Assembly (NCBI RefSeq): GCF_000255115.2
Contig: NC_018068.1
Coordinates: 2,575,977-2,639,976, forward strand
Length of the DNA stretch: 64,000 bases
Direction: 5' to 3'
Source: Desulfosporosinus acidiphilus SJ4
Lineage (GTDB): Bacteria; Bacillota; Desulfitobacteriia; Desulfitobacteriales; Desulfitobacteriaceae
Shown: positions 41,121-60,783 of the stretch, piece after piece
Position numbering within the stretch: position 1 is the first letter of the stretch
How the letters are laid out: each line of letters begins with the position of its first letter
The notes under the pieces: model-generated
What the model was told of the DNA's origin: nothing
Database searches by the model: none
Seen by the model: only the letters and a program-made list of their open reading frames with translations
Position numbers and translations under genes: made by a program

Positions 41121-41391
41121 TTTTTATTTTAAGTTACTAGTTTCGTGGGAGGAGGGGGCAGATGTTCCCATGGGAATTTCCTGAGGGAGATGTAGCTATA
41201 GGTCAGTCGCAGAAGTTCATAATGGGAGCATAACCAATGTATGTCAATTGAAAAAGCGTTTGCACAAAATGGACTTTAGTAAACCCGGATGGCCATGAAG
41301 TCTATTTATAACAAGATACACAAGGAGCTAGCAATTCTATAAAAACAAGAGGAAAACCAAGAGAAATTAAATTCATATAGGGAGGATAATG

Positions 41392-42690
41392 ATGAGTTTG
41401 TTAACGAAAGCATTGGAAGGAATAATTACACCTGAAATGGATCAGGTGGCAGCCCAGGAGAACGTCTCACCGGAATTTATTAGGCAGGGAGTTGCCGCTG
41501 GCAGAATAGTAATCCCTTGTAATTTTCATCATAAGACTATTGTTCCTATAGGGATAGGAAATGGGCTGCGTACAAAGGTCAGTGCCAGTATCGGTCTTTA
41601 CGGTAATAATGCTGTAATCGACGAAGAAGTTAAAAAGATCAAAACAGCGTTAACAGCAGGCACGGATGCTCTAATGGATTTAAGCGTTAGCGGTGATATC
41701 GACACGATGCGTAAAGAGACACTAAATTCTGCTTCCGTTCCAGTTGGTACACTGCCGGTTTATCAGGCAATCGCTGAAGCAGGAGAAAAGTACGGTTCGA
41801 GTGTGAAAATGGATGCCGAGGAAATGTTTGAGGTCATTGAACGTCATGCTGCCGATGGTGTTGACTTCTTAGCTTTACACTGTGCAACAACCATGGATGT
41901 TGTGGAACGAGCAAAGAAAGAAGGGCGTATTGACCCACTAGTAAGTTATGGAGGTGTTCACCTAATTGGTTGGATGATCGCCAATCAATGTGAAAATCCC
42001 CTTTACGAACAATATGATCGGGTATTGGAAATTGCCAGAAAATATAACGTTACCCTAAGCCTGGCAGACGGGATGAGGCCGGGTTGTCTGGCTGATTCTT
42101 TGGACGGAGCGCAGGTTCAGGAACTGGTAATCCTGGGAGAACTGGTCAGACGGGCTCGGGAAGGGGGGGTTCAAATCATGATTAAAGGACCTGGACATAT
42201 GCCCCTTGATCATGTAAAGGCGACGGTTACTTTGCAAAAGAGCCTTTGTAAGGGGGCCCCATATTTTGTTTTCGGGCCTTTGCTTACGGATATTGCTGCC
42301 GGTTATGACCATATTAATGCTGCAATCGGGGGTGCCATCAGTGCCTGGGCCGGTGCGGAATTTCTCTGCTATGTAACTCCTGCTGAACATATTGGCGTTC
42401 CCAGTATTGATCAGGTACGGGAGGGAGTCATAGCTGCCCGTATCGCTGCACATGCCGGAGACCTGGCCAAAGGGATGAAAGAAGCCCATCAATGGGATTT
42501 AGAAATGTCTATGGCTCGGAAAAACCTGAACTGGAAAAGACAACTGGAATTGGCCCTTGATCCGCAGAGAGCAAAAGAGATCAGGAAAACACGAAATAGC
42601 GGCGAATCTTCAGCTTGTGCCATGTGTGGAAAGTATTGTGCTATGGAAATTGTCGCAAAGTATCTGAACACAACAAAACATAGCTGTTAA
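41392..42690 (+). CDS. bzaA: ThiC paralogue, probable 5-hydroxybenzimidazole synthase subunit BzaA
   Basis: This 432-residue radical-SAM protein is homologous to ThiC: DALMDLSVSGD, GVDFLALHCATTMD, YGGVHLIGWM, NVTLSLADGMRPGCLADS, KGPGHMPLDHVKA, GPLLTDIAAGYDHI and the C-terminal cluster motif CAMCGKYCAM. It differs from ThiC at usually fixed places (LSLADGMRP for [16 protein letters not shown] for EGPGHVP). It lies behind a cobalamin riboswitch and directly before a second such gene. In anaerobes BzaA and BzaB turn AIR into 5-hydroxybenzimidazole, the precursor of the B12 lower ligand. I therefore assign bzaA by context; the A/B order is inference. Two ATGs are adjacent; 41392 has better spacing from ggagg. 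Confidence 0.87.
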   Translation: MSLLTKALEGIITPEMDQVAAQENVSPEFIRQGVAAGRIVIPCNFHHKTIVPIGIGNGLRTKVSASIGLYGNNAVIDEEVKKIKTALTAGTDALMDLSVSGDIDTMRKETLNSASVPVGTLPVYQAIAEAGEKYGSSVKMDAEEMFEVIERHAADGVDFLALHCATTMDVVERAKKEGRIDPLVSYGGVHLIGWMIANQCENPLYEQYDRVLEIARKYNVTLSLADGMRPGCLADSLDGAQVQELVILGELVRRAREGGVQIMIKGPGHMPLDHVKATVTLQKSLCKGAPYFVFGPLLTDIAAGYDHINAAIGGAISAWAGAEFLCYVTPAEHIGVPSIDQVREGVIAARIAAHAGDLAKGMKEAHQWDLEMSMARKNLNWKRQLELALDPQRAKEIRKTRNSGESSACAMCGKYCAMEIVAKYLNTTKHSC

Positions 42691-42709
42691 GAAGGGAAAG
42701 GTAGATAAG

Positions 42710-44011
42710 ATGACCCAGGTTTTAAAAGCACGTTCAGGAATCATTACTGAGGAAATGGAGGCCGTGGCAGCTGATGAGAATCTTGATGTAGAGTTTATCC
42801 GGCAGGGAATCGCAGAAGGGAGAATAGTTATTCCCAGAAACAAAAAACGGAAGGAATTTAAATACTGTGGGATTGGGGAAGGTTTAAGGATTAAGGTTAA
42901 TGCCTTGATCGGTACCTCGAGCGACCGTGATGACATGGAAATAGAAGCACGCAAGGTTGCGATTGCGGAAGAAGCCGGCTGCGACAGTTTTATGGACTTA
43001 AGTACGGGAAAAGATATAGATGGGATGAGGAAGCAGTCCTTGTCCCTAGCTCATGTAGCGGTAGGCAGCACGATGATTTACCAAGCAGGTATCGAAGCGA
43101 TTGAAAAATACGGCAGTGTTGTCAACATGAGAGAAGAGGATATTTTTGAGGTCGTTGAACGACAAGCGGCTGAAGGTCTGGATTTTATGGCGATTCATTG
43201 TGCTCTGAATATGGACGTTATCAAAAGAATGCAGACAGTCGGGCGCGTAACCGACGTGGTCAGCCGGGGCGGAGCTTTTCTTACCGGATGGATGCTGCAC
43301 AATCAGAAAGAAAATCCGCTGTATGAAAAATTCGATCGTGTGCTGGAGATATTAAAGGCCTATGACGTAACCTTAAGCCTGGGGGATGCCATCCGACCCG
43401 GCAGTATCGCCGATTCGTTGGATGGTGCGCAACTTCAAGGAATGATCATTCAGGGAGAACTAACCAGGAGAGCACAGGAGGCCGGTGTACAGGTCATGGT
43501 GGAAGGACCGGGACATGTTCCCCTTAATCATGTCGAAGCTACTATGCGCGTGCAGAAAAGACTATGCAACAATGCCCCATATTATATTCTTGGAACTTTG
43601 GCTACGGATGTAACTCCAGGTTATGATCATATCAGCGGAGCGATCGGAGGCGCATTGATCGGAGCATGCGGTGCGGATTTTCTATGTTATCTGACTCCTG
43701 CCGAACACCTGGGGCTACCAACTGAGGAAGACGTCAGAACCGGAGTAATCACCACCAGAATGGCAGCCCATATTGCTGATATCACCAAAGGCAATAAACA
43801 AGCCTGGGCTAGAGATTTGGAAATGGCCAAGGCCCGTGTTGCCCTGAACATTGACGGGCAGATTACGGCGGCCCTTTATCCCGAACAACTGAAAGCTTCC
43901 GCAGCAACTACCACAAACGATCACGTTTGTGTGGTATGCGGAACCGGATGTGCCGCCCAGGTCGCTGCCGAATATTTTGGCCAGCCGGACGACAGTATGT
44001 CGAATTCATGA
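42710..44011 (+). CDS. bzaB: ThiC paralogue, probable 5-hydroxybenzimidazole synthase subunit BzaB
   Basis: The 433-residue protein is a diverged neighbour of the preceding gene, 19 bases downstream. Shared segments are [102 protein letters not shown] and the cluster motif CVVCGTGCAAQ, in which the Pro-Met after the last Cys is lost. Both ThiC-type halves retain CX2CX3C. Together with the gene before it and the cobalamin riboswitch it fits bzaAB. No bzaC, bzaD, bzaE or cobT gene is in the window, so the predicted product is the unmethylated 5-hydroxybenzimidazole unless the tailoring genes lie elsewhere. Confidence 0.87.
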   Translation: MTQVLKARSGIITEEMEAVAADENLDVEFIRQGIAEGRIVIPRNKKRKEFKYCGIGEGLRIKVNALIGTSSDRDDMEIEARKVAIAEEAGCDSFMDLSTGKDIDGMRKQSLSLAHVAVGSTMIYQAGIEAIEKYGSVVNMREEDIFEVVERQAAEGLDFMAIHCALNMDVIKRMQTVGRVTDVVSRGGAFLTGWMLHNQKENPLYEKFDRVLEILKAYDVTLSLGDAIRPGSIADSLDGAQLQGMIIQGELTRRAQEAGVQVMVEGPGHVPLNHVEATMRVQKRLCNNAPYYILGTLATDVTPGYDHISGAIGGALIGACGADFLCYLTPAEHLGLPTEEDVRTGVITTRMAAHIADITKGNKQAWARDLEMAKARVALNIDGQITAALYPEQLKASAATTTNDHVCVVCGTGCAAQVAAEYFGQPDDSMSNS

Positions 44012-52174: not shown

Positions 52175-52681
52175 TTGGATATTGATATGAATGGATTAGG
52201 ATCTCAGTATATTAAAAGAAGCTTCGAGTCTCTTACTGATGATTTAGAATTCTTATTTGAACGATTAAACGAGCCGGTCTGTTTAGCTGCGGTGTTGATT
52301 GACGGACCTAATACTGCGATTTCCAGAGATCTCCTGCGGAAAACCTGTGACTCATTGCCCATTCGATACTCAGAGTATTTGCTACCTCAAAATATTGGGT
52401 TAGAAAAGGTAGTGACATTAATCGAATCGCTAAATCGTGAAAAATCTATTCATGGGCTGATCGTCGTAGTGCCATCCACTCTTAAGTCCGTGTTAAATCT
52501 ATTATATGACCATATAAGTCCACAAAAAAATATTCAATTGAACGATGAAGATTACCACAAAATAGAAAAGTTTGGCCTTGATCCGCATGAAAAGGATATT
52601 TTAAGCATTCTCATGATGCTCGAAAAAACCTTTTATACTGCCGTCGATCAGATCGCCAAGCAAAAGGGGCATATAAAATAA
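52175..52681 (+). CDS. Orphan protein resembling the N-terminal half of FolD
   Basis: The 168-residue protein resembles the catalytic domain of methylene-tetrahydrofolate dehydrogenase/cyclohydrolase: LAAVLIDGPNTAISRDLLRK, IRYSEYLLPQNIGLEKVVTL (strand-helix with the PxN turn) and LNREKSIHGLIVVVPSTL, matching the usual HGILVQLPL. The catalytic YXXXK Lys and the NADP-binding C-terminal half are absent, so it is unlikely to be an active FolD. It starts at TTG with aagggggaag before. It lies 170 bases before the MetF-Hdr operon, but its A+T-rich composition differs from that operon. A regulatory or folate-binding role is conceivable; the resemblance is weak. Confidence 0.5.
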   Translation: MDIDMNGLGSQYIKRSFESLTDDLEFLFERLNEPVCLAAVLIDGPNTAISRDLLRKTCDSLPIRYSEYLLPQNIGLEKVVTLIESLNREKSIHGLIVVVPSTLKSVLNLLYDHISPQKNIQLNDEDYHKIEKFGLDPHEKDILSILMMLEKTFYTAVDQIAKQKGHIK

Positions 52682-52850
52682 ATTCGCCGGTATCGTTACA
52701 ACAGTTTTGAAAGATTATGGTCATCCAGTTATTGCGCAAGCCAAACTATCTTTGTCTTAATTGGCAGATTTACGGCCTTTTTAGTGTTGGCACGAACCTT
52801 ACTTGGTCAAGATGTCAAGAAGAATTAATAATTGTTTGGGGGTAAAGGAT

Positions 52851-53402
52851 GTGAACGATTTCCTAGAGCTGCTGGAAACGGAGAGCGGTCAGCCTATCAG
52901 ACGCTGTTATCAATGCAAGAAGTGCAGCGGCGGCTGTCCGGTAAGCTCCTACACAGACATCAGACCCCACCAGATGGTGAGGCTGGCCCAGCTGGGGAAG
53001 CAGGAGGAGTTGCTTGCTTCGCCGGGAATCTGGTACTGTACGGGCTGCATGACTTGCCACGCGCGCTGCCCTAATGGCATCAACATATCGGCAATCCTTG
53101 ACGTAGTCAAGGCCCGTGCCTTAAGGGCCGGGGATTTGACCGCTGAAAGCTTACCCTTTTTCCACGACTGCTTCCTGGCTTCAGTTAGACACCACGGCAG
53201 AGTATTTGAGCTGGGCATGGTGGCCGGTTACAAATGGCGCTCCAAGAGATGGACGGACGATAAAGGATTGGGAGCCAGGATGTTCCTTAAAGGGAAGTTG
53301 GCGCTTCTCCCCAACCGCTGCAGCAACAGCCGGCAAATCCGTGAGATTTTCCAGATAGAAGTAGCACTCCGAAAGAAGGAAGGGGGTAAAGACAATGGGT
53401 GA
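52851..53402 (+). CDS. hdrC: HdrC-like iron-sulfur subunit
   Basis: The 183-residue protein has two [4Fe-4S] motifs: CYQCKKCSGGCP (about residue 19) and CTGCMTCHARCP (about 62), the pattern of heterodisulfide reductase subunit C. It carries electrons between HdrA and HdrB. The start is uncertain: GTG 52851 (VNDFLELLETESGQ) matches where relatives begin and has gggggtaaagg before it, whereas ATG 52812 and TTG 52803 lack a site. It is the first gene of hdrC-hdrB-hdrA-mvhD-metV-metF, and its end overlaps hdrB by 8 bases. Confidence 0.9.
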   Translation: MNDFLELLETESGQPIRRCYQCKKCSGGCPVSSYTDIRPHQMVRLAQLGKQEELLASPGIWYCTGCMTCHARCPNGINISAILDVVKARALRAGDLTAESLPFFHDCFLASVRHHGRVFELGMVAGYKWRSKRWTDDKGLGARMFLKGKLALLPNRCSNSRQIREIFQIEVALRKKEGGKDNG

Positions 53403-54267
53403 GCGACTCGGTTACTATCCCGGATGTTCTCTACATACCAGCGCCAGGGAATACGACCTTTCCTGCCGTGCGGTACTTAGAGCCCTTGGCGTGGACTATG
53501 CAGAAATTCCGGACTGGAACTGCTGCGGCGCGAGTTCAGCCCACGGTGCCGGGCATGCCCTCAGCCGGGCCCTACCCCTGCGCAACCTAATGATCGCCGA
53601 GGATGTGGGAGAAGACCTGATTGTACCCTGTGCGGCTTGCTACAGCATCTTGCGCTCCACCTCCGGCTATCTGCAGAAAAAGTCAGCAGAGGCCAGGGAG
53701 CTGCAGGCTAAAGTGGAGCAGGTTCTGGGCAAACCCTACCGGGAAAAGGTCCGGGTAAGCCATCCTTTAGACTTGCTAACCAAGCCGGAAATGCTCAACA
53801 AGATCAAAGGACAGCTGAGTACTTCGCTGAACGGCATTAAACTCGCCCCCTATTACGGCTGTTTCCTGGTCCGGCCGGAAATTGCCGCTTTCGATGACCA
53901 GGAACAGCCTCAGAAGATGGATATTCTACTGCGGGAATTGGGTGCCGAAGTGGTCCGCTGGTCCTATAAAACCGAATGCTGCGGCGGCGGAGTGGGGATT
54001 ACCGAGGGATCAGTGGCGTCTTCCCTGGTGGAGAAGCTGGTCCGCGAGGCCAAGAAGGCGGGCGCGGAAGCTGTGGTTACAGCCTGCCCCCTGTGCCAGG
54101 CTAATCTGGAAGGCAGGCAGACCCAGGGTTTACCTGCTTTCTATTTCACAGAACTGGTGGGCCTGGCTCTGGGGATTTCCGCCAGCAAGCGGTGGTTCAA
54201 GTCCCATCTGGTAGATACAACCCCGGTGTTAAGCAAAGTGCAAGGGGGGATATCCGGTGGCAGATAA
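53395..54267 (+). CDS. hdrB: HdrB-like subunit with two CCG domains
   Basis: The 290-residue protein has two Cys-rich CCG domains: YYPGCSLHTSAREYD with DWNCCGASSAH and CAACYSI, and YYGCFLVRPE with KTECCGGGVGI and CPLCQANLE. In heterodisulfide reductase these bind two noncubane [4Fe-4S] clusters at the active site. In this operon no methanogenic disulfide is expected, so HdrB probably hands electrons to another acceptor or plays a structural role, as proposed for the Moorella MetFV complex. It overlaps hdrC by 8 and hdrA by 11 bases. Confidence 0.93.
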   Translation: MGERLGYYPGCSLHTSAREYDLSCRAVLRALGVDYAEIPDWNCCGASSAHGAGHALSRALPLRNLMIAEDVGEDLIVPCAACYSILRSTSGYLQKKSAEARELQAKVEQVLGKPYREKVRVSHPLDLLTKPEMLNKIKGQLSTSLNGIKLAPYYGCFLVRPEIAAFDDQEQPQKMDILLRELGAEVVRWSYKTECCGGGVGITEGSVASSLVEKLVREAKKAGAEAVVTACPLCQANLEGRQTQGLPAFYFTELVGLALGISASKRWFKSHLVDTTPVLSKVQGGISGGR

Positions 54268-57200
54268 CGTGGTTGGCGCGGTAATGGTGGTTGGAGGAGG
54301 AATTGCCGGCATGCAGTCCGCGCTGGATCTGGCCAATGGGGGATTCTTGGTGCATTTGGTGACTGACGAATCCTCAATCGGCGGCAAAATGGCCCAGTTG
54401 GACAAAACCTTTCCCACCAATGAATGCGCCATGTGTCTCTTAGGACCGAAAATGTCCGACACCTTAAGCCACCCTAATATTCAAATCCATACCTGTTCAA
54501 CTTTGACCAAAGTCGATGGTGACGCAGGTAACTTTAAGGCCACGGTAGCAGAGGCCCCGCGCTACGTCAATATGGCCGAATGTACGGCCTGCGGGGATTG
54601 TGAGCAGGTCTGCCCGGTTGAGGTAGGGGATCGCTTCAACGAGGACTCCATGCAGCGCAAAGCAATTTATAAGCTGTTTCCCCAGGCGGTGCCCAACAAG
54701 TACCTAGTGGAAAAACGCGGCACACCTCCCTGTCGGGGCGCTTGCCCGGCAGGCTGCAACGCCCAGGGTTATGTAGCATTGCTTTCCAAAGGAAAGTTCG
54801 GCGAGGCCTTGGAGGTTATCAGGAGGCGCATGCCCTTTGCCGGGGTTTGCGGACGAATCTGTCACCATCCCTGTGAAGGAGAATGCAACCGCAAGCAGTT
54901 CGATCAGCCCATAGCCATTGCCCAGTTGAAACGCTCTGCGGCGGATTACGGTTGGGCTGAAGCGGCGGAACAGAACCTGTTGGTCAAACCGCCCGCAGAA
55001 TTCTTGGTGGATGAACGAGGAAATCCCTTAAAAACAGCGGTCATCGGGGCAGGTCCCGGCGGCCTGGCAGCAGCCAAGGACCTGGCTGAGCTGGGTTACC
55101 AGGTGACTGTCATTGATGCCCTGCCGGAAGCCGGCGGAATGCTGCGGGCCGGAATTCCCCGCTACCGTCTGCCCGGGGAGATTGTCAGCCGTGAAACCCA
55201 GGCAATCCTAGACCTGGGAGTGACCTTTAGGCCCAATACCAGGGTCGGGGTAGACGTACGCTTTAAGGACTTGCAATCAGAATTTAACGCAGTGCTTGTT
55301 GCAACAGGTTTTCAAAAGGGCCGTTCGCTGCCCATCCCGGGGTGCGAACTCAAGGGAGTAGAACTGGGGGTCGAGTTCCTCCGGGCGGCTGCCTTGGGTG
55401 AAACTCCGGCAGTAGGCAGGAAAACAGTGATTATCGGCGGGGGCAATGTAGCTATAGATACGGCCCGCACCGCACTACGGCTGGGGGCAGAGGAAGTTCA
55501 CCTCTACTGCCTGGAAGATTATGAGCATATGCCGGCTCACCGATGGGAGATCGATGAAGCCGAGGAAGAAGAGGTGCGCGTTCATGCCGGCTGGGGACCC
55601 AAAGAAATCCTTGGCAAAAACGGCGGAGTGATGGGGGCCGTTTTCAAACGCTGTACCCGGGTCTTCGATGAAAATGGACAATTCAATCCGACCTATGATG
55701 AACTGCAAACGGAAACAATCAGTGCCGACTGCGTTGTCCTTTCCATTGGCCAGGCCAGCGACCTGTCCTTCCTGGACGGAACAGGGGTGGAAACCAACCG
55801 GGGCGTGATTAAGGTTGATCAACTGACCTACGCTGCCAATCAAGCAGGGGTGTTCGCCTGCGGGGATATCGTCAGCGGGCCTGCTTCTGTGGTGGCTGCC
55901 GTCGGCGCTGCCCATGAAGCGGCTGAATCCATCCACCGTTTCCTCCAAGGTCAGGATCTCAGGCAGGGCAGGAGTCTGGCGAAATCGGAACCGGTGGGAG
56001 TACCTGAAGGTTTGAAGGTGACGCATGCTGCCCGGCAAAACCAGGCCCAGGCGGATCCCGCCCGGCGGGTCAGGGATTTCACTGAAGTCTATGAAGGCCT
56101 GACCCGGGAGCAGGTCATCAAGGAGGCTAAACGCTGCCTAAACTGCGGGATTTGCTCTGAATGCCTGCAGTGCGTCAAGGCCTGCAAGAAAAGGGCTATT
56201 GACCATTCGGCAGAACCCCAAGTTTATGAATTGGCCGTGGGAGCCGTAATCCTCTCTCCCGGTTACCAGCTGGAATCGGGAAACCTGAGAGGTGAGTACG
56301 GCTACGGCATCTATGAAAACGTTATGACCTCCCTGGAGTATGAACGATTGCTTAGTTCCACCGGGCCTACCCAAGGCCATGTGCTGCGGCCTTCGGATCG
56401 CAAAGCGCCGCAGAAAGTCGCCTTTATCCAATGCGTAGGATCGCGGACCTGTGATAAGGGAACTGAATACTGCTCTTCCATCTGTTGTATGTATTCGACC
56501 AAAGAAGCCATCATCTCCCGTGAACACGATGCCAACATCCAGCCGTCGATTTTCTACCTGGACATGAGGTCCTACGGCAAGAACTTTGACAAGTACGTTA
56601 AATCAGCCAAGAAAAACGGGGTGCGTTATGTGCGCACCATGATCTCCAGCGTCAAGGAAGATCCGGTGAGCGGTAACCTGATCATCAAATACTACCAGGA
56701 TAGTAATATCGTGGAGGAAGAGTTCGAATTGGTGGTTCTGGCTATGGGGGTTAAACCGCCGAAGGCTGCCGGGGAACTGGCCCGTGTCACGGGGATAACC
56801 TTGAATGAATACGGCTTCGCCCATACCAAACCCCTCGACCCAATTCAGACATCAAGACCTGGGATTTTCGTGGCGGGAGCTTTCCAGGGTCCCAGAGATA
56901 TTCCCGAGACCGTGATGAACGCCAGCGCTGCTGCCGCTGCTGCCGGTGCTCTTCTGGCTGACGGACGAAACCAGCTGGTTACTCCCAAGGTCTATCCTCC
57001 GGAACGCGATGTCAGCGAGGAAGAAGCCAAAGTAGGAGTGTTTGTCTGCCACTGCGGCATCAACATCGGTTCCATCGTCGATGTTCCTGGCACTGTAGCC
57101 TATGCCAGGACCCTGCCCGGAGTGGTCCACGCCGAGGAGTTCCTCTACACCTGTTCTCAGGATTCCGTCAAACACATTGAAGACGTAATCAACGAGCAAG

Positions 57201-58726
57201 GGCTTAACCGGGTCGTGGTGGCTTCCTGCACCATCAGGACGCATCAGCCCCTGTTCCGAGAGGCTTTAAGGGAGGCCGGATTAAACCAGTTCCTTTTCGA
57301 AATGGCCAATATTCGGGACCAGTGCTCATGGGTGCACAGGGCCGAACCAAAACGGGCTACGGTTAAAGCCAGGGATTTGGTCCGGGCGGCAGTGGCCAAG
57401 GTCAAGGGCCATGTGCCCCTGCACCTGGAACCGGTTCCGGTAGTCCCCAGGGCTTTGGTTATCGGAGGCGGGATAGCCGGAATGACGGCCTGTCTGACCT
57501 TTGCCGAGCAGGGATTCGAGTCTTACCTGGTGGAACGGGAGCAGATCCTGGGCGGCAGCCTGCGCAGCCTGCGCTTTGGGGAAGACGGCCGGGACGCACA
57601 GGAATATATGCTTGAAATGATCGATAAAGTCCGGTCCAACCCCTTAATTCATGTGTTTACTCAAACGGAACTCCAGGATATTACCGGTCACCAGGGACAC
57701 TTTGTCAGCTCTATGAAGACTGGTGACCTACGCCGGGAGGTGCACCACGGAGTGGTTGTCGTGGCCACCGGCGGGAGGTTGTCGGAAGCAAACCCGGTTT
57801 ACGGAATCAATAAAGACCCCAGAATCATCACCCTGTCAGAGCTGGAAGAAAAACTCCACGCCCTGCAGCAGGTACAGGAAGGTAAGCTGTGGTCAGCCTA
57901 TCAAGAGCAGTTGGGCAAATGGCACGAAGCGGCCATTATCCTCTGCGCCAGCGCCGGGGAGGAGATGCCCTACTGCAGCAGGAGCTGCTGCACCCAAGGC
58001 ATCTCCAACGCCATCAGGCTGAAGCAGCAAAATCCTCAGGGCACGGTCTATGTGCTGCACCGCGAAATCCGCACCTACGGTTTCCTGGAGAGCTACTATA
58101 AGCTAGCCCGAGAAATGGGGATAGTCTTCGTCCGCTACTCCCCGGATAATCTGCCTGCGCCGAATATTGGCACCGAGCTGTCGATTAGGGTGGCAGACCT
58201 GGATTCAGAATTAGAATTTCTGATCAAACCGGACCTCTTGGTCTTGGCGCAGGGTTTTGAAGCGGCCGAGGGCGCTAGGGAACTGGGCACCCTGCTCAAA
58301 GTACCGCTGAATGAAGACAGCTTCTTCATGGAAACCCACGCCAAGCTGGGACCGATGGATTTTCCGGGCTCTGGAATGTTCCTCTGTGGAGCCGCCCACT
58401 CGCCCAAGTTTGTCAGTGAGGCCATCTATCAGGCCCAGGGGGCAGTGGCCCGAGCAGTGACCATCTTGGCTAAGCCCCACCTGATGGTGGGTGGGGTGGT
58501 TGCAAAAGTGGAAGCGGAAAAATGCGCCGCCTGTCTAACCTGCGTCCGAGTTTGCCCCTACAGCGTACCGAAGATCGGGCCTAAAATGGTCGCAGAAATC
58601 GAAACTGTCCAGTGCCACGGTTGCGGCACCTGCGTCGGCGAGTGCCCGGCTAAAGCCATTCAACTCCAGCACTATACCGACGAACAAATGTTGGCCAAAA
58701 TCTCTGCGGTTGGGAGGACTGAGTAA
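54257..58726 (+). CDS. hdrA: Giant HdrA: HdrA split by a GltD/NfnB-like module and fused to a second HdrA
   Basis: This 1,489-residue flavoprotein would be the bifurcating core. Residues 1-150 are an HdrA start (VVGGGIAGMQSALDLA, CTACGDCEQVCP). Residues about 155-600 are a complete NAD(P)H:acceptor module of the GltD/NfnB type: GTPPCRGACPAGCN, CGRICHHPCEGECNR, FAD site AVIGAGPGGLAAA (about 260), NAD(P) site IIGGGNVAIDTARTA (about 393) and FACGDIVSGP. Residues 626-925 resume HdrA (CLNCGICSECLQCVKAC, IQCVGSRTC, CSSICCMYSTKEA). From about 930 a second HdrA begins (VCHCGINIGSIVDV, VIGGGIAGMTACLTFA about 1069, YCSRSCCTQG about 1239) and ends in two clusters (CAACLTCVRVCP about 1423, CHGCGTCVGECP about 1453). 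The start is GTG with ggggggatatcc before it. There is no frameshift. Confidence 0.93.
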   Translation: MADNVVGAVMVVGGGIAGMQSALDLANGGFLVHLVTDESSIGGKMAQLDKTFPTNECAMCLLGPKMSDTLSHPNIQIHTCSTLTKVDGDAGNFKATVAEAPRYVNMAECTACGDCEQVCPVEVGDRFNEDSMQRKAIYKLFPQAVPNKYLVEKRGTPPCRGACPAGCNAQGYVALLSKGKFGEALEVIRRRMPFAGVCGRICHHPCEGECNRKQFDQPIAIAQLKRSAADYGWAEAAEQNLLVKPPAEFLVDERGNPLKTAVIGAGPGGLAAAKDLAELGYQVTVIDALPEAGGMLRAGIPRYRLPGEIVSRETQAILDLGVTFRPNTRVGVDVRFKDLQSEFNAVLVATGFQKGRSLPIPGCELKGVELGVEFLRAAALGETPAVGRKTVIIGGGNVAIDTARTALRLGAEEVHLYCLEDYEHMPAHRWEIDEAEEEEVRVHAGWGPKEILGKNGGVMGAVFKRCTRVFDENGQFNPTYDELQTETISADCVVLSIGQASDLSFLDGTGVETNRGVIKVDQLTYAANQAGVFACGDIVSGPASVVAAVGAAHEAAESIHRFLQGQDLRQGRSLAKSEPVGVPEGLKVTHAARQNQAQADPARRVRDFTEVYEGLTREQVIKEAKRCLNCGICSECLQCVKACKKRAIDHSAEPQVYELAVGAVILSPGYQLESGNLRGEYGYGIYENVMTSLEYERLLSSTGPTQGHVLRPSDRKAPQKVAFIQCVGSRTCDKGTEYCSSICCMYSTKEAIISREHDANIQPSIFYLDMRSYGKNFDKYVKSAKKNGVRYVRTMISSVKEDPVSGNLIIKYYQDSNIVEEEFELVVLAMGVKPPKAAGELARVTGITLNEYGFAHTKPLDPIQTSRPGIFVAGAFQGPRDIPETVMNASAAAAAAGALLADGRNQLVTPKVYPPERDVSEEEAKVGVFVCHCGINIGSIVDVPGTVAYARTLPGVVHAEEFLYTCSQDSVKHIEDVINEQGLNRVVVASCTIRTHQPLFREALREAGLNQFLFEMANIRDQCSWVHRAEPKRATVKARDLVRAAVAKVKGHVPLHLEPVPVVPRALVIGGGIAGMTACLTFAEQGFESYLVEREQILGGSLRSLRFGEDGRDAQEYMLEMIDKVRSNPLIHVFTQTELQDITGHQGHFVSSMKTGDLRREVHHGVVVVATGGRLSEANPVYGINKDPRIITLSELEEKLHALQQVQEGKLWSAYQEQLGKWHEAAIILCASAGEEMPYCSRSCCTQGISNAIRLKQQNPQGTVYVLHREIRTYGFLESYYKLAREMGIVFVRYSPDNLPAPNIGTELSIRVADLDSELEFLIKPDLLVLAQGFEAAEGARELGTLLKVPLNEDSFFMETHAKLGPMDFPGSGMFLCGAAHSPKFVSEAIYQAQGAVARAVTILAKPHLMVGGVVAKVEAEKCAACLTCVRVCPYSVPKIGPKMVAEIETVQCHGCGTCVGECPAKAIQLQHYTDEQMLAKISAVGRTE

Positions 58727-59205
58727 TGGAAAAGCGCGAGAGTGGAAATAAGGAAAGTTTCTATCCCAAAATCATTGCCTTCTGTTGTTACTACTGCGCC
58801 TATTCGGCCGCCGACCTGGCAGGATCGCTGCGCCTGCAGTACCCGCCAACGGTGCGGATGATCGAACAGCCCTGTTCCGGCAAAGTGGATATCCGTCTCC
58901 TGCTGCAGGCCTTTGAGGACGGAGCGGACGGGGTGTATGTGGCGGGTTGCATGGAGGGGGATTGCCATTTTCTCAAAGGCAACATCAGGGCCAAAAAAAG
59001 GGTTAACGCCGCCAAAATAATCCTCGACAAGGTCGGGGTCGGCGGTGAGAGGCTGGAAATGTTCAATCTGTCGGGCTCCATGGGCCCCAGATTTGCTGAA
59101 ATAGCCAATGAGATGACGGAAAGAATTTTAAAGCTCGGTCCCAACCCGCTGAACACAGCCAGGGCTGAGCAGGCTACAAGGGGAGAGGAGGGTGAACCTA
59201 TATGA
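58726..59205 (+). CDS. mvhD: MvhD-like [2Fe-2S] subunit
   Basis: The 159-residue protein has the MvhD/FrhD-type Cys set: FCCYYCAYSAADLAG (about residue 19), EQPCSGKVDIRLL (about 48) and VAGCMEGDCHFLKGN (about 72). In methanogens MvhD links hydrogenase to HdrA; in acetogens it links other oxidoreductases. Its start overlaps the hdrA stop by one base (TAATG), so translation is coupled. The next gene, metV, overlaps its end by 4 bases. Confidence 0.94.
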   Translation: MEKRESGNKESFYPKIIAFCCYYCAYSAADLAGSLRLQYPPTVRMIEQPCSGKVDIRLLLQAFEDGADGVYVAGCMEGDCHFLKGNIRAKKRVNAAKIILDKVGVGGERLEMFNLSGSMGPRFAEIANEMTERILKLGPNPLNTARAEQATRGEEGEPI

Positions 59206-59873
59206 TCGTAGCGGAAGCAAAACCGTTGGAGGAAATCCTGGAGACCCTGCAGGGAATGTCAAAGGTTTTGGTAGTGGGCTGCGGCGGCTGCGTGTCGGTC
59301 TGCCTGGCCGGCGGAGAAAAGGAAGTGGGAATTCTGGCCAGTACCCTGCGCATGAAGCGCGAGCTTATGGGCGACTCACTAGAAACTGTGGAGGAAACCC
59401 TGACCCGCCAGTGCGATCCCGAATACGTGCAGCAGTTGGCCAAAAAGCTGGAAGGTATAGACTGCATCCTTTCTCTGGCCTGCGGAGTGGGTGTACAGTT
59501 TCTAGTGGAACAATTCCCCCAAACCTGGGTGGTTCCGGCTCTGAATACCAAGTTTGCCGGTGCGACCATGGAGCACGGAGTTTGGGAAGAACGCTGCGGG
59601 TTGTGCGGGGAATGTGTGCTAGCCCGGACCGGCGGGGTATGTCCGGTAATCCGCTGCGCCAAGAGCCTCTTAAATGGTCCATGCGGCGGTTCGCAGAATG
59701 GCAAATGCGAAGTGAAGCCCAACGAATGCGCCTGGCAGTTGATTTACAACAGGATGAGCGAGCTGGGCAGGTTGGAATTGCTTCTGGACGTGGCTGGGGC
59801 CAAGGACTGGTCTAAGTCCAGGGACGGCGGTCCCCGCAAAATGGTCAGAGAGGATGTGAAGATCGATGGCTGA
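59202..59873 (+). CDS. metV: MetV-like zinc/iron-sulfur subunit of methylene-THF reductase
   Basis: The 223-residue protein has an N-terminal alpha/beta part with LVVGCGGCVSVCLAGG and DCILSLACGVGVQF, and a C-terminal Cys-rich part with RCGLCGECVLARTGGVCPV, GPCGGSQNGKCEVKP and ECAW. This is the MetF C-terminal-like (MetV) family, required with MetF in acetogens. Start ATG 59202 overlaps mvhD by 4 bases (ATGA), and the end overlaps metF by 8 bases. Confidence 0.92.
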   Translation: MIVAEAKPLEEILETLQGMSKVLVVGCGGCVSVCLAGGEKEVGILASTLRMKRELMGDSLETVEETLTRQCDPEYVQQLAKKLEGIDCILSLACGVGVQFLVEQFPQTWVVPALNTKFAGATMEHGVWEERCGLCGECVLARTGGVCPVIRCAKSLLNGPCGGSQNGKCEVKPNECAWQLIYNRMSELGRLELLLDVAGAKDWSKSRDGGPRKMVREDVKIDG

Positions 59874-60783
59874 GGAAAAGAGCAAACTGCAGAGCCTTTT
59901 TGAACAGGGTGAATTTGCAGTAACCTGCGAGATTGGCCCCCCTAAAAACGCTCAGGGAGATGGCATCCGTAATCACTCCGAACATCTAAAGCCATTTGTG
60001 GACGCCGTAAACCTCACCGACAACCAGACAGCCATCGTCAGACTTTCCAGCATCGGGGCCGGTGTGCATGTCCTGGCGGCAGGCGGCGAACCCATTATCC
60101 AGATGACAACCCGCGACCGCAACCGCATAGCCTTGCAGAGCGATTTGCTGGGGGCCTACAGCCTGGGCGTGCGCAATGTGCTCTGTCTTTCGGGGGATCA
60201 CCAGACTTTTGGCAACCATCAAGGAGCGAAAAACGTCTATGATCTGGATTCCATCCAGTTAATCCAAACGGTAAAAGACATGCGGGACGCCAAAGTGTTC
60301 CAATCCGGGGAAGTAATCAAGCAGGGCGAACCACGGTTTTTCATCGGGGCGGTGGCCAATCCCTTCGCCGACCCCTTCGAGTTCCGGGTGCTGCGGCTGG
60401 AAAAGAAAATCCGGGCTGGCGCCCAGTTCATTCAAACCCAGTGCATCTTCGACATGGAGCGCTTTGAAGCCTTCATGGATCTGGCCTGCAAGCGGGGCCT
60501 CCACCAGCAAGCTTATATTATGGCCGGGGTAATGCCCATCAAGTCCGCTAAAGCGGCTAAGTATATGCAGAAAAATGTTTCCGGCATGCTGGTCCCCGAT
60601 GGGATTGTGGAAAGAATGAGCAAGGCTGAGGACCAACCCGCCGAGGGCATCAAACTTTGCATCGAGCAGATCAAACATTTGCGGACCGTTCCCGGAGTAC
60701 GGGGGGTTCATATCATGGCAGTGGCCTGGGAAGAAATAGTGCCGGAAATCGTCAAAGGAGCGGGGCTGTTACCAAGGCCTTAA
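59866..60783 (+). CDS. metF: Methylenetetrahydrofolate reductase MetF
   Basis: MetF reduces 5,10-methylene-THF to 5-methyl-THF with FAD, a step of the Wood-Ljungdahl methyl branch. The 305-residue barrel begins FAVTCEIGPPKNAQGD with the catalytic Glu, and contains NLTDNQTAIVRLSS, NVLCLSGDHQTFGNH, GAQFIQTQCIFD and YIMAGVMPIKSAKAA. It is the last gene of the operon. With MetV, HdrABC and MvhD it matches the gene set of the complex described from Moorella thermoacetica, thought to use NADH. Which second acceptor is reduced here is unknown. Confidence 0.95.
   Translation: MAEEKSKLQSLFEQGEFAVTCEIGPPKNAQGDGIRNHSEHLKPFVDAVNLTDNQTAIVRLSSIGAGVHVLAAGGEPIIQMTTRDRNRIALQSDLLGAYSLGVRNVLCLSGDHQTFGNHQGAKNVYDLDSIQLIQTVKDMRDAKVFQSGEVIKQGEPRFFIGAVANPFADPFEFRVLRLEKKIRAGAQFIQTQCIFDMERFEAFMDLACKRGLHQQAYIMAGVMPIKSAKAAKYMQKNVSGMLVPDGIVERMSKAEDQPAEGIKLCIEQIKHLRTVPGVRGVHIMAVAWEEIVPEIVKGAGLLPRP

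Follow-up and report, generated by a model that had tools for sequence, protein, structure and literature searches.

The hdrA gene of Desulfosporosinus acidiphilus SJ4, examined here in a 64,000-nucleotide stretch of its genome (the window; NC_018068.1, positions 2,575,977 to 2,639,976), encodes a subunit of a Moorella-type (Type IV, Hdr-type) methylene-tetrahydrofolate (methylene-THF) reductase, MetFV-HdrCBA-MvhD, and its architecture has already been published. Sequence and structural models argue with considerable confidence for a Moorella-type HdrA in which two HdrA units form complementary halves, the ferredoxin domain of the first unit (unit 1) accommodates a GltD module, and electrons would follow the routes proposed below. 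The frame was unbroken over 1,489 codons, from a GTG start at 54257 to a stop codon ending at 58726 (all features below lie on the plus strand and are given in window positions), with the 5' end overlapping the end of hdrB and the 3' end reaching mvhD. Profile searches with the window proteins gave the operon order hdrC-hdrB-hdrA-mvhD-metV-metF, the complete gene set of a Type IV reductase in a single operon. Chance or a frameshift artefact as the source of the fusion was excluded by the unbroken frame together with full-length homologues.

The domain order of the protein was an N-terminal HdrA half, a GltD/NfnB-like insert, the C-terminal half of the same HdrA, and a second HdrA (unit 2). Four Rossmann motifs were found in the single frame at the positions claimed by a first-pass annotation made from the DNA letters: GGGIAG (residues 13-18), GAGPGG (264-269), GGGNVA (394-399), and GGGIAG (1069-1074). 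In the Pfam/NCBIfam search, the HdrA2 model NF040770 scored 887 bits over several stretches, below its cut-off of 1100; GltD-like profiles covered residues 143-661, Fer4_20 matched residues 156-234, and a dicluster was found near the C-terminus (1416-1470). The insert lies C-terminal to the first ferredoxin-domain motif (C109-C119) and N-terminal to the C-Xn-CC region (C726-C744), where the same annotation had put it, and profiles, alignment to HdrA 5ODC, and AlphaFold models agreed on this placement. When the insert was removed, unit 1 aligned end to end with residues 144-568 of 5ODC (417.7 bits), and the sole disturbed spot was the second cluster of the inserted ferredoxin domain, which was occupied by the six-Cys motif CLNCGICSECLQCVKAC. 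Unit 2 (residues 917-1489) aligned with residues 6-232 and 339-649 of 5ODC and skipped the inserted ferredoxin domain. A GltD module inside the unit 1 ferredoxin domain, with a second HdrA after it that lacks the inserted ferredoxin domain, is the arrangement of a Moorella-type HdrA.

Conservation was counted over 59 full-length rows; the 58 other non-identical homologues retained the same domain order and nearly all cluster cysteines, far beyond chance. The N-terminal half of unit 1 (residues 1-153; 54257-54715), delimited by alignment to 5ODC chain A, contains the first flavin adenine dinucleotide (FAD) Rossmann motif, Cys60 (equivalent to archaeal Cys197), and the first ferredoxin-domain cluster (C109, C112, C115, and C119, kept in 59/59 rows; C57 and C60 were kept in 58/59). 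The insert (residues 155-626; 54719-56134), recognized by Fer4_20, Pyr_redox_2, and its structural match, comprises an N-terminal Cys cluster domain and the FAD and NAD(P)H Rossmann domains, and the six-Cys ferredoxin-like motif (residues 627-643; 56135-56185) ends it at the position of the second cluster of the HdrA ferredoxin domain, in a gap of the 5ODC alignment and with all six Cys in 59/59 rows. The C-terminal half of unit 1 (residues 644-906; 56186-56974) carries E696 and K749 (equivalent to E356 and K409 by alignment and conservation) and the cluster ligands C726, C739, C743, and C744. Unit 2 (57005-58723) is a complete HdrA save for the inserted ferredoxin domain. Its N-terminal iron-sulphur domain (57032-57406), with the CHCGINIG sequence and C931, C933, C966, and C991 (59/59), has no counterpart in unit 1, and a double [4Fe-4S] ferredoxin domain (58523-58645; PF13237/PF14697; Cys 98% conserved) stands at its C-terminal end, both as anticipated in the first-pass annotation.

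AlphaFold models of parts of the chain (mean pLDDT, the predicted local distance difference test score, 77 and 75) reproduced this order. The model of residues 1-903 showed an HdrA fold with the insert looped out (Z ~32 over ~400 residues, 35-40% identity). The insert itself (residues 152-641) matched NfnABC and StnC (9BOV, 9N5V, and 8OH5) with Z scores of 44-47, the Nfn and Stn chains overall giving 37-47; it thus shares the GltD fold of NfnB, including the FAD and NAD(P)H domains. Unit 2 matched whole HdrA (8RVU/5ODC; Z ~40). The claim that one chain combines a GltD/NfnB-like unit, putatively NAD(P)H-oxidizing, with two HdrA flavin domains is therefore upheld by sequence and models.

In the literature, E356 and K409 of the Methanothermococcus thermolithotrophicus HdrA mark the bifurcating flavin. 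Both equivalents in unit 1, E696 and K749, were present in 59/59 rows. In unit 2, E1197 (57845-57847) corresponds to E356 (E in 56/59), and the K409 position is held by Ser1250 (58004-58006); this column contained K in 44 rows, S in 8, Q in 4, R in 2, and N in 1, with Ser fixed in 7/7 rows of the clade of the window protein. Because the lysine is replaced by S1250 in unit 2, the protein was not filed as a two-site bifurcating HdrA, which, as read for M. thermoacetica, would carry E and K in both flavin domains; with Ser for Lys, only one site looks competent in the window protein and its nearest relatives. The unit 1 flavin alone thus looks, from its residues, to carry the bifurcation signature in this lineage, and the FAD of unit 2 probably serves as a relay or in a structural role. 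The first-pass annotation had proposed two HdrA flavins for bifurcation: the FAD fold of unit 2 and E1197 are kept, but Ser1250 stands where bifurcating HdrA has Lys409. The loss of flavin-site residues in one unit, which that annotation had named as refuting its reading, is thus partly borne out.

The two units also differ in other elements. In the 5ODC alignments, the Cys197 equivalent was C60 of unit 1, with Tyr1117 as its counterpart in unit 2, while the N-terminal cluster domain occurred only in unit 2. Such a complementary distribution of Cys197 and the N-terminal domain has been proposed for self-heterodimeric HdrA (Chadwick et al., 2022), and the chain therefore looks like an internal HdrA-HdrA' heterodimer. 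Judged from alignments and models, the two units resemble complementary halves, an internal pair with a division of labour. The four HdrC-facing cluster ligands were kept by both units in every row (59/59), those of unit 2 being C1230, C1240, C1244, and C1245 (57944-57991).

In the insert, the motif for NAD(P)H binding (residues 392-425; 55430-55531), ending ...EVHLYCLEDYEHM, shows CLED in place of the YRR seen in Nfn and Stn relatives with solved structures; NADPH-using relatives carry Tyr-Arg-Arg at the position of this Cys-Leu-Glu. Moorella-like rows had CLE, and Thermincola-type rows had YRR. The Moorella complex, whose HdrA contains GltD, showed an NADH:benzyl viologen activity of 190 U/mg, against 0.5 U/mg with the Sporomusa ovata HdrA, which lacks it. 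We infer that the insert is the NADH site and that CLE is an NADH-type motif. R304 of the insert, at the position of NfnB R201 and StnC R239 by hand count, was invariant in 18 rows; StnC retains this Arg without bifurcating, and no NfnA gene lies beside hdrA, R304 alone being indecisive for an NfnB-like bifurcating flavin.

When the insert and its flanks were compared separately, they gave different pictures. The Thermincola-type GltD (L096-L101, L111, L130, and L133) was ~43% identical to that of the clade of the window protein, while the HdrA flanks of the two types averaged 67-76% identity (57% in the C-terminal part of unit 2); the closest GltD to the Thermincola type was that of L117 (58-60%). 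In the HdrA core tree, six of the seven Thermincola-type rows grouped with the window clade (SH-aLRT, a Shimodaira-Hasegawa-like approximate likelihood-ratio test, 98, starred), and the GltD data rejected such a clade (log-likelihood 220.7 lower; approximately unbiased test, p-AU 1e-40). A GltD topology holding the Thermincola, window, and Moorella types together was not rejected (p-AU 0.103), nor was an HdrA core topology holding the Thermincola and deep rows together (p-AU 0.159). Topology alone did not amount to formal proof of cassette exchange, since a compromise topology was rejected by neither the core nor the GltD data. Exchange is favoured because the flanks are ~70% and GltD ~43% identical, yet the same GltD is 58-60% identical to that of L117. 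It is strongly suggested by these sequence comparisons, though not proven, that the GltD cassette was exchanged between lineages.

The presence of GltD was also set against that of separate Flx genes in loci with metF nearby and enough flank. Flx was absent in 20/23 loci with intact GltD and present in 6/7 or 6/8 loci without GltD or with a truncated GltD, depending on how the mixed locus L117 is scored (Fisher p 0.0009-0.003, only indicative because the rows are related by descent). Locus L113, where GltD is truncated and flxA is the sole Flx gene, was excluded from this count. Considering motifs, exchange, and Flx together, we regard the following as evenly balanced: the GltD of Type IV HdrA may be a swappable pyridine-nucleotide cassette, replaced in Thermincola-type relatives from another HdrA lineage (NADPH-type YRR for NADH-type CLE) and elsewhere substituted by Flx, and the second flavin of the window lineage may have been reduced to a lesser role, so that a single bifurcating or confurcating site remains, supplied through an exchangeable nucleotide port.

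In the proposed mechanism, NADH would be oxidized at the FAD of GltD, the GltD clusters would transfer electrons to the unit 1 FAD, HdrC-HdrB would connect this FAD with MetV-MetF, and MvhD together with unit 2 would lead to a second redox partner. In archaeal complexes, MvhD feeds electrons in through the C-terminal double cluster of HdrA, and the inserted ferredoxin domain passes low-potential electrons to ferredoxin. GltD occupies this low-potential port of archaeal HdrA, and NADH would therefore, by port homology, be the low-potential partner; a confurcation that pairs NADH with a donor of higher potential, or the reverse of it, would consequently be no worse a fit than NADH bifurcation. 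In Moorella, oxidation of NADH by the enzyme has been shown, ferredoxin is not the second partner, and menaquinol confurcation is now proposed.

Between these two possibilities we lean slightly, on the grounds of this analysis, towards confurcation with NADH as the low-potential partner, a reading that is itself tentative and falls somewhat short of an even chance. NADH and a quinol-derived pair (menaquinol, via MvhD or a membrane partner) would jointly reduce methylene-THF in a membrane-coupled reaction. This has been proposed for S. ovata and M. thermoacetica; S. ovata MvhD was 75% membrane-associated, and the port homology of the GltD insertion points the same way. The operon, however, has no quinone-binding subunit, and the S. 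ovata H2:methylene-THF assay consumed no NADH, although the HdrA of that organism lacks GltD. NADH bifurcation, proposed by Mock and Thauer and again in the first-pass annotation, would have two NADH oxidized at GltD and the unit 1 (perhaps also the unit 2) flavin splitting the pairs between methylene-THF and a low-potential acceptor. The MetFV-HdrABC-MvhD complex of M. thermoacetica was reportedly studied by Mock et al. in 2014, and these results are known here via later papers. The bifurcation-type E/K of unit 1, the NADH:viologen activity of the Moorella complex, and the thermodynamic room between NADH and methylene-THF speak for this alternative; we nevertheless consider it rather doubtful, given that the Moorella enzyme was not seen to transfer electrons from NADH to methylene-THF and did not use ferredoxin as the acceptor, and that the low-potential ferredoxin domain of archaeal HdrA is interrupted by GltD in unit 1 and absent from unit 2. 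Of the bifurcation suggested in the first-pass annotation, NADH oxidation thus has a precedent in Moorella, and the remainder is still hypothetical.

A linear NADH:methylene-THF reductase, with electrons running from GltD through the Hdr clusters to MetVF and no bifurcating flavin, appears quite unlikely. StnC is a precedent for a GltD module serving as mere electron input, and the unit 2 Lys has been lost in the window lineage, but E696 and K749 are invariant (59/59) and the Moorella enzyme again speaks against it, having shown no NADH-dependent reduction of methylene-THF. Operation in reverse in vivo, in which methyl-THF would be oxidized with NAD+ and a second acceptor, can be combined with any of the other readings and seems on balance somewhat unlikely. 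The host is a Desulfosporosinus relative, an acetyl-CoA synthase beta-subunit domain was found in 30/30 genomes of the genus, and the host has further HdrA-like loci (L006 and L007) resembling Qmo, a name that is our own reading of the matches; sequence, however, cannot show direction.

Several observations weigh against the mechanism and the supporting arguments given above. No NADH-dependent reduction of methylene-THF was observed with the Moorella enzyme. The E/K marker of a bifurcating flavin is a literature criterion and no proof. The HdrC-facing cluster of unit 2 is intact although the operon has one hdrC-hdrB pair; this would point to a second site for docking, for which our account offers no explanation. 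The Flx count is phylogenetically non-independent, with one clade supplying most of the 20 loci; in addition, Flx accompanies an intact GltD in three metF loci, and Flx without metF occurs in six loci that carry GltD. Given these three and six loci with both, GltD is not always a replacement for Flx. A strict replacement was rejected on the same six loci and on four metF loci with both, one of them with a truncated GltD. The first-pass annotation had suggested that, with the insert, no separate NADH dehydrogenase is needed. The hdrA operon indeed contains no gene for one, and the usual absence of Flx beside an intact GltD supports the suggestion, but the loci with both restrict it.

In the six loci without metF (L041, L042, L125, L128, L129, and L030), a GltD-fused HdrA lies beside FlxABC and MvhD, with a fused HdrBC in 5/6; they possibly encode an Hdr-based complex with two pyridine-nucleotide sites, a YRR-type GltD and FlxA. 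Two fused HdrA near metF have a truncated GltD: that of L114 (4998-8960) lacks the NAD(P)H-binding motif and has all three Flx genes nearby, and that of L113 (5507-9586) gave a GltD match in two pieces. The fusion protein is split over two genes in L046 and L134 (~900 residues, HdrA-GltD, and 575 residues, second HdrA). In L043, L044, and L045, where hdrCB and mvhD are present, HdrA is a single unit of ~1,110 residues that has its N-terminal domain and a GltD insert and is not followed by a second HdrA.

A sample of 398 genomes from the whole phylum contained the fusion in about 46 cases, three of these being cut or partial matches, and metV-metF followed downstream in 18/18 Bacillota loci with enough flank. 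The fused hdrA of L027 was disrupted by frameshifts. Outside Bacillota, the same order occurred in one Hydrothermota and one Zixiibacteriota locus (L030 and L031), without metF. Among named genomes, the nearest protein was that of Desulfosporosinus sp. I2 (L009; 93% identity); only 3/30 Desulfosporosinus genomes have the fused HdrA and its MetF, and most have another methylene-THF reductase-like protein of ~520-540 residues with a PF02219 match. In the host genome, L157 (4465-6039) encodes a 524-residue fusion of a methylene-THF reductase-like domain (PF02219, weak) with a MetV C-terminal domain (PF12225).

The other genes of the operon are hdrC (52803-53402; 199 residues with two [4Fe-4S] motifs; PF13183, and TIGR03290 CoB_CoM_SS_C at 74.5 bits, under the cut-off), hdrB (53395-54267; 290 residues with CCG domains; PF02754 in two stretches, and TIGR03288 at 143 bits, under the cut-off), mvhD (58726-59205; 159 residues; PF02662 FlpD, 160.9 bits), metV (59202-59873; 223 residues; PF12225, 117 bits), and metF (59866-60783; 305 residues, methylene-THF reductase; PF02219, 132 bits). 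Upstream of hdrC, a FolD-like open reading frame of 168 residues (52175-52681) contains the catalytic domain only (PF00763, 36.7 bits) and is 90% identical in Desulfosporosinus I2. Elsewhere in the window, two tandem ThiC paralogues (41389-44011), the second of which exceeds the cut-off of the BzaB model (789.7 versus 700 bits), probably represent bzaA-bzaB, which serve the lower ligand of B12.

Which redox partner the Hdr-type methylene-THF reductases use has long been asked in work on how acetogens conserve energy, and to this question the family comparison adds an invariant flavin site, a lysine-less site in the window lineage, a GltD apparently exchanged together with a different nucleotide motif, and loci with Flx instead. 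The same HdrA architecture has been described for Moorella thermoacetica (Kremp et al., 2022; PMC9430772), which rules out a new architecture. The domain order is standard in Moorella-type acetogens and in many other Bacillota, and published, an outcome that the first-pass annotation had itself named as refuting its reading, so its novelty did not hold. The M. thermoacetica HdrA (~1,487 residues, 162.8 kDa) shares with the window protein the operon content, the domain order, and E/K of unit 1 at nearly equal positions, and in the Moorella-like rows L081, L102, and L104, E696, K750, E1204, and K1246 stand at exactly the published M. thermoacetica positions. Its unit 2 has E and K, whereas that of the window lineage has E and Ser, and the host differs from M. 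thermoacetica in being a sulfate-reducer relative and no classical acetogen. The HdrA of the S. ovata Hdr-type reductase (942 residues) likewise has two HdrA flavin domains, with E/K in just one, and lies in an hdrCBA-mvhD-metVF set, but it lacks a GltD insert and shows hardly any activity with NADH.

More distant systems share single features with the window protein. Type II HdrA (HdrA3-4) is also a tandem HdrA in which Cys197 and the N-terminal domain are distributed in a complementary way; it lacks GltD and has the reversed order, with the N-terminal domain in the first HdrA and Cys197 in the second. The ANME-1 (anaerobic methanotrophic archaea) HdrA9-11 and type III HdrA (PMC9012536, PMC12054007) differ in having a single thioredoxin reductase-like (TrxR-like, flavin) domain, in being archaeal, and in a gene cluster without metF. 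NfnABC (9BOV, 9N5V) and StnC (8OH5) share the fold of the insert over residues 152-641 but are parts of transhydrogenases, StnC being fused to NuoG/FdhF-like parts, not of HdrA, and carry YRR rather than CLE. In the host genome itself, the Hdr-Flx-like cluster L033 (3880-11504) has a tandem HdrA (1,010 residues) and mvhD, as in the operon described here; unlike the latter, it has no GltD, three separate FlxABC-like genes, and a fused HdrBC.

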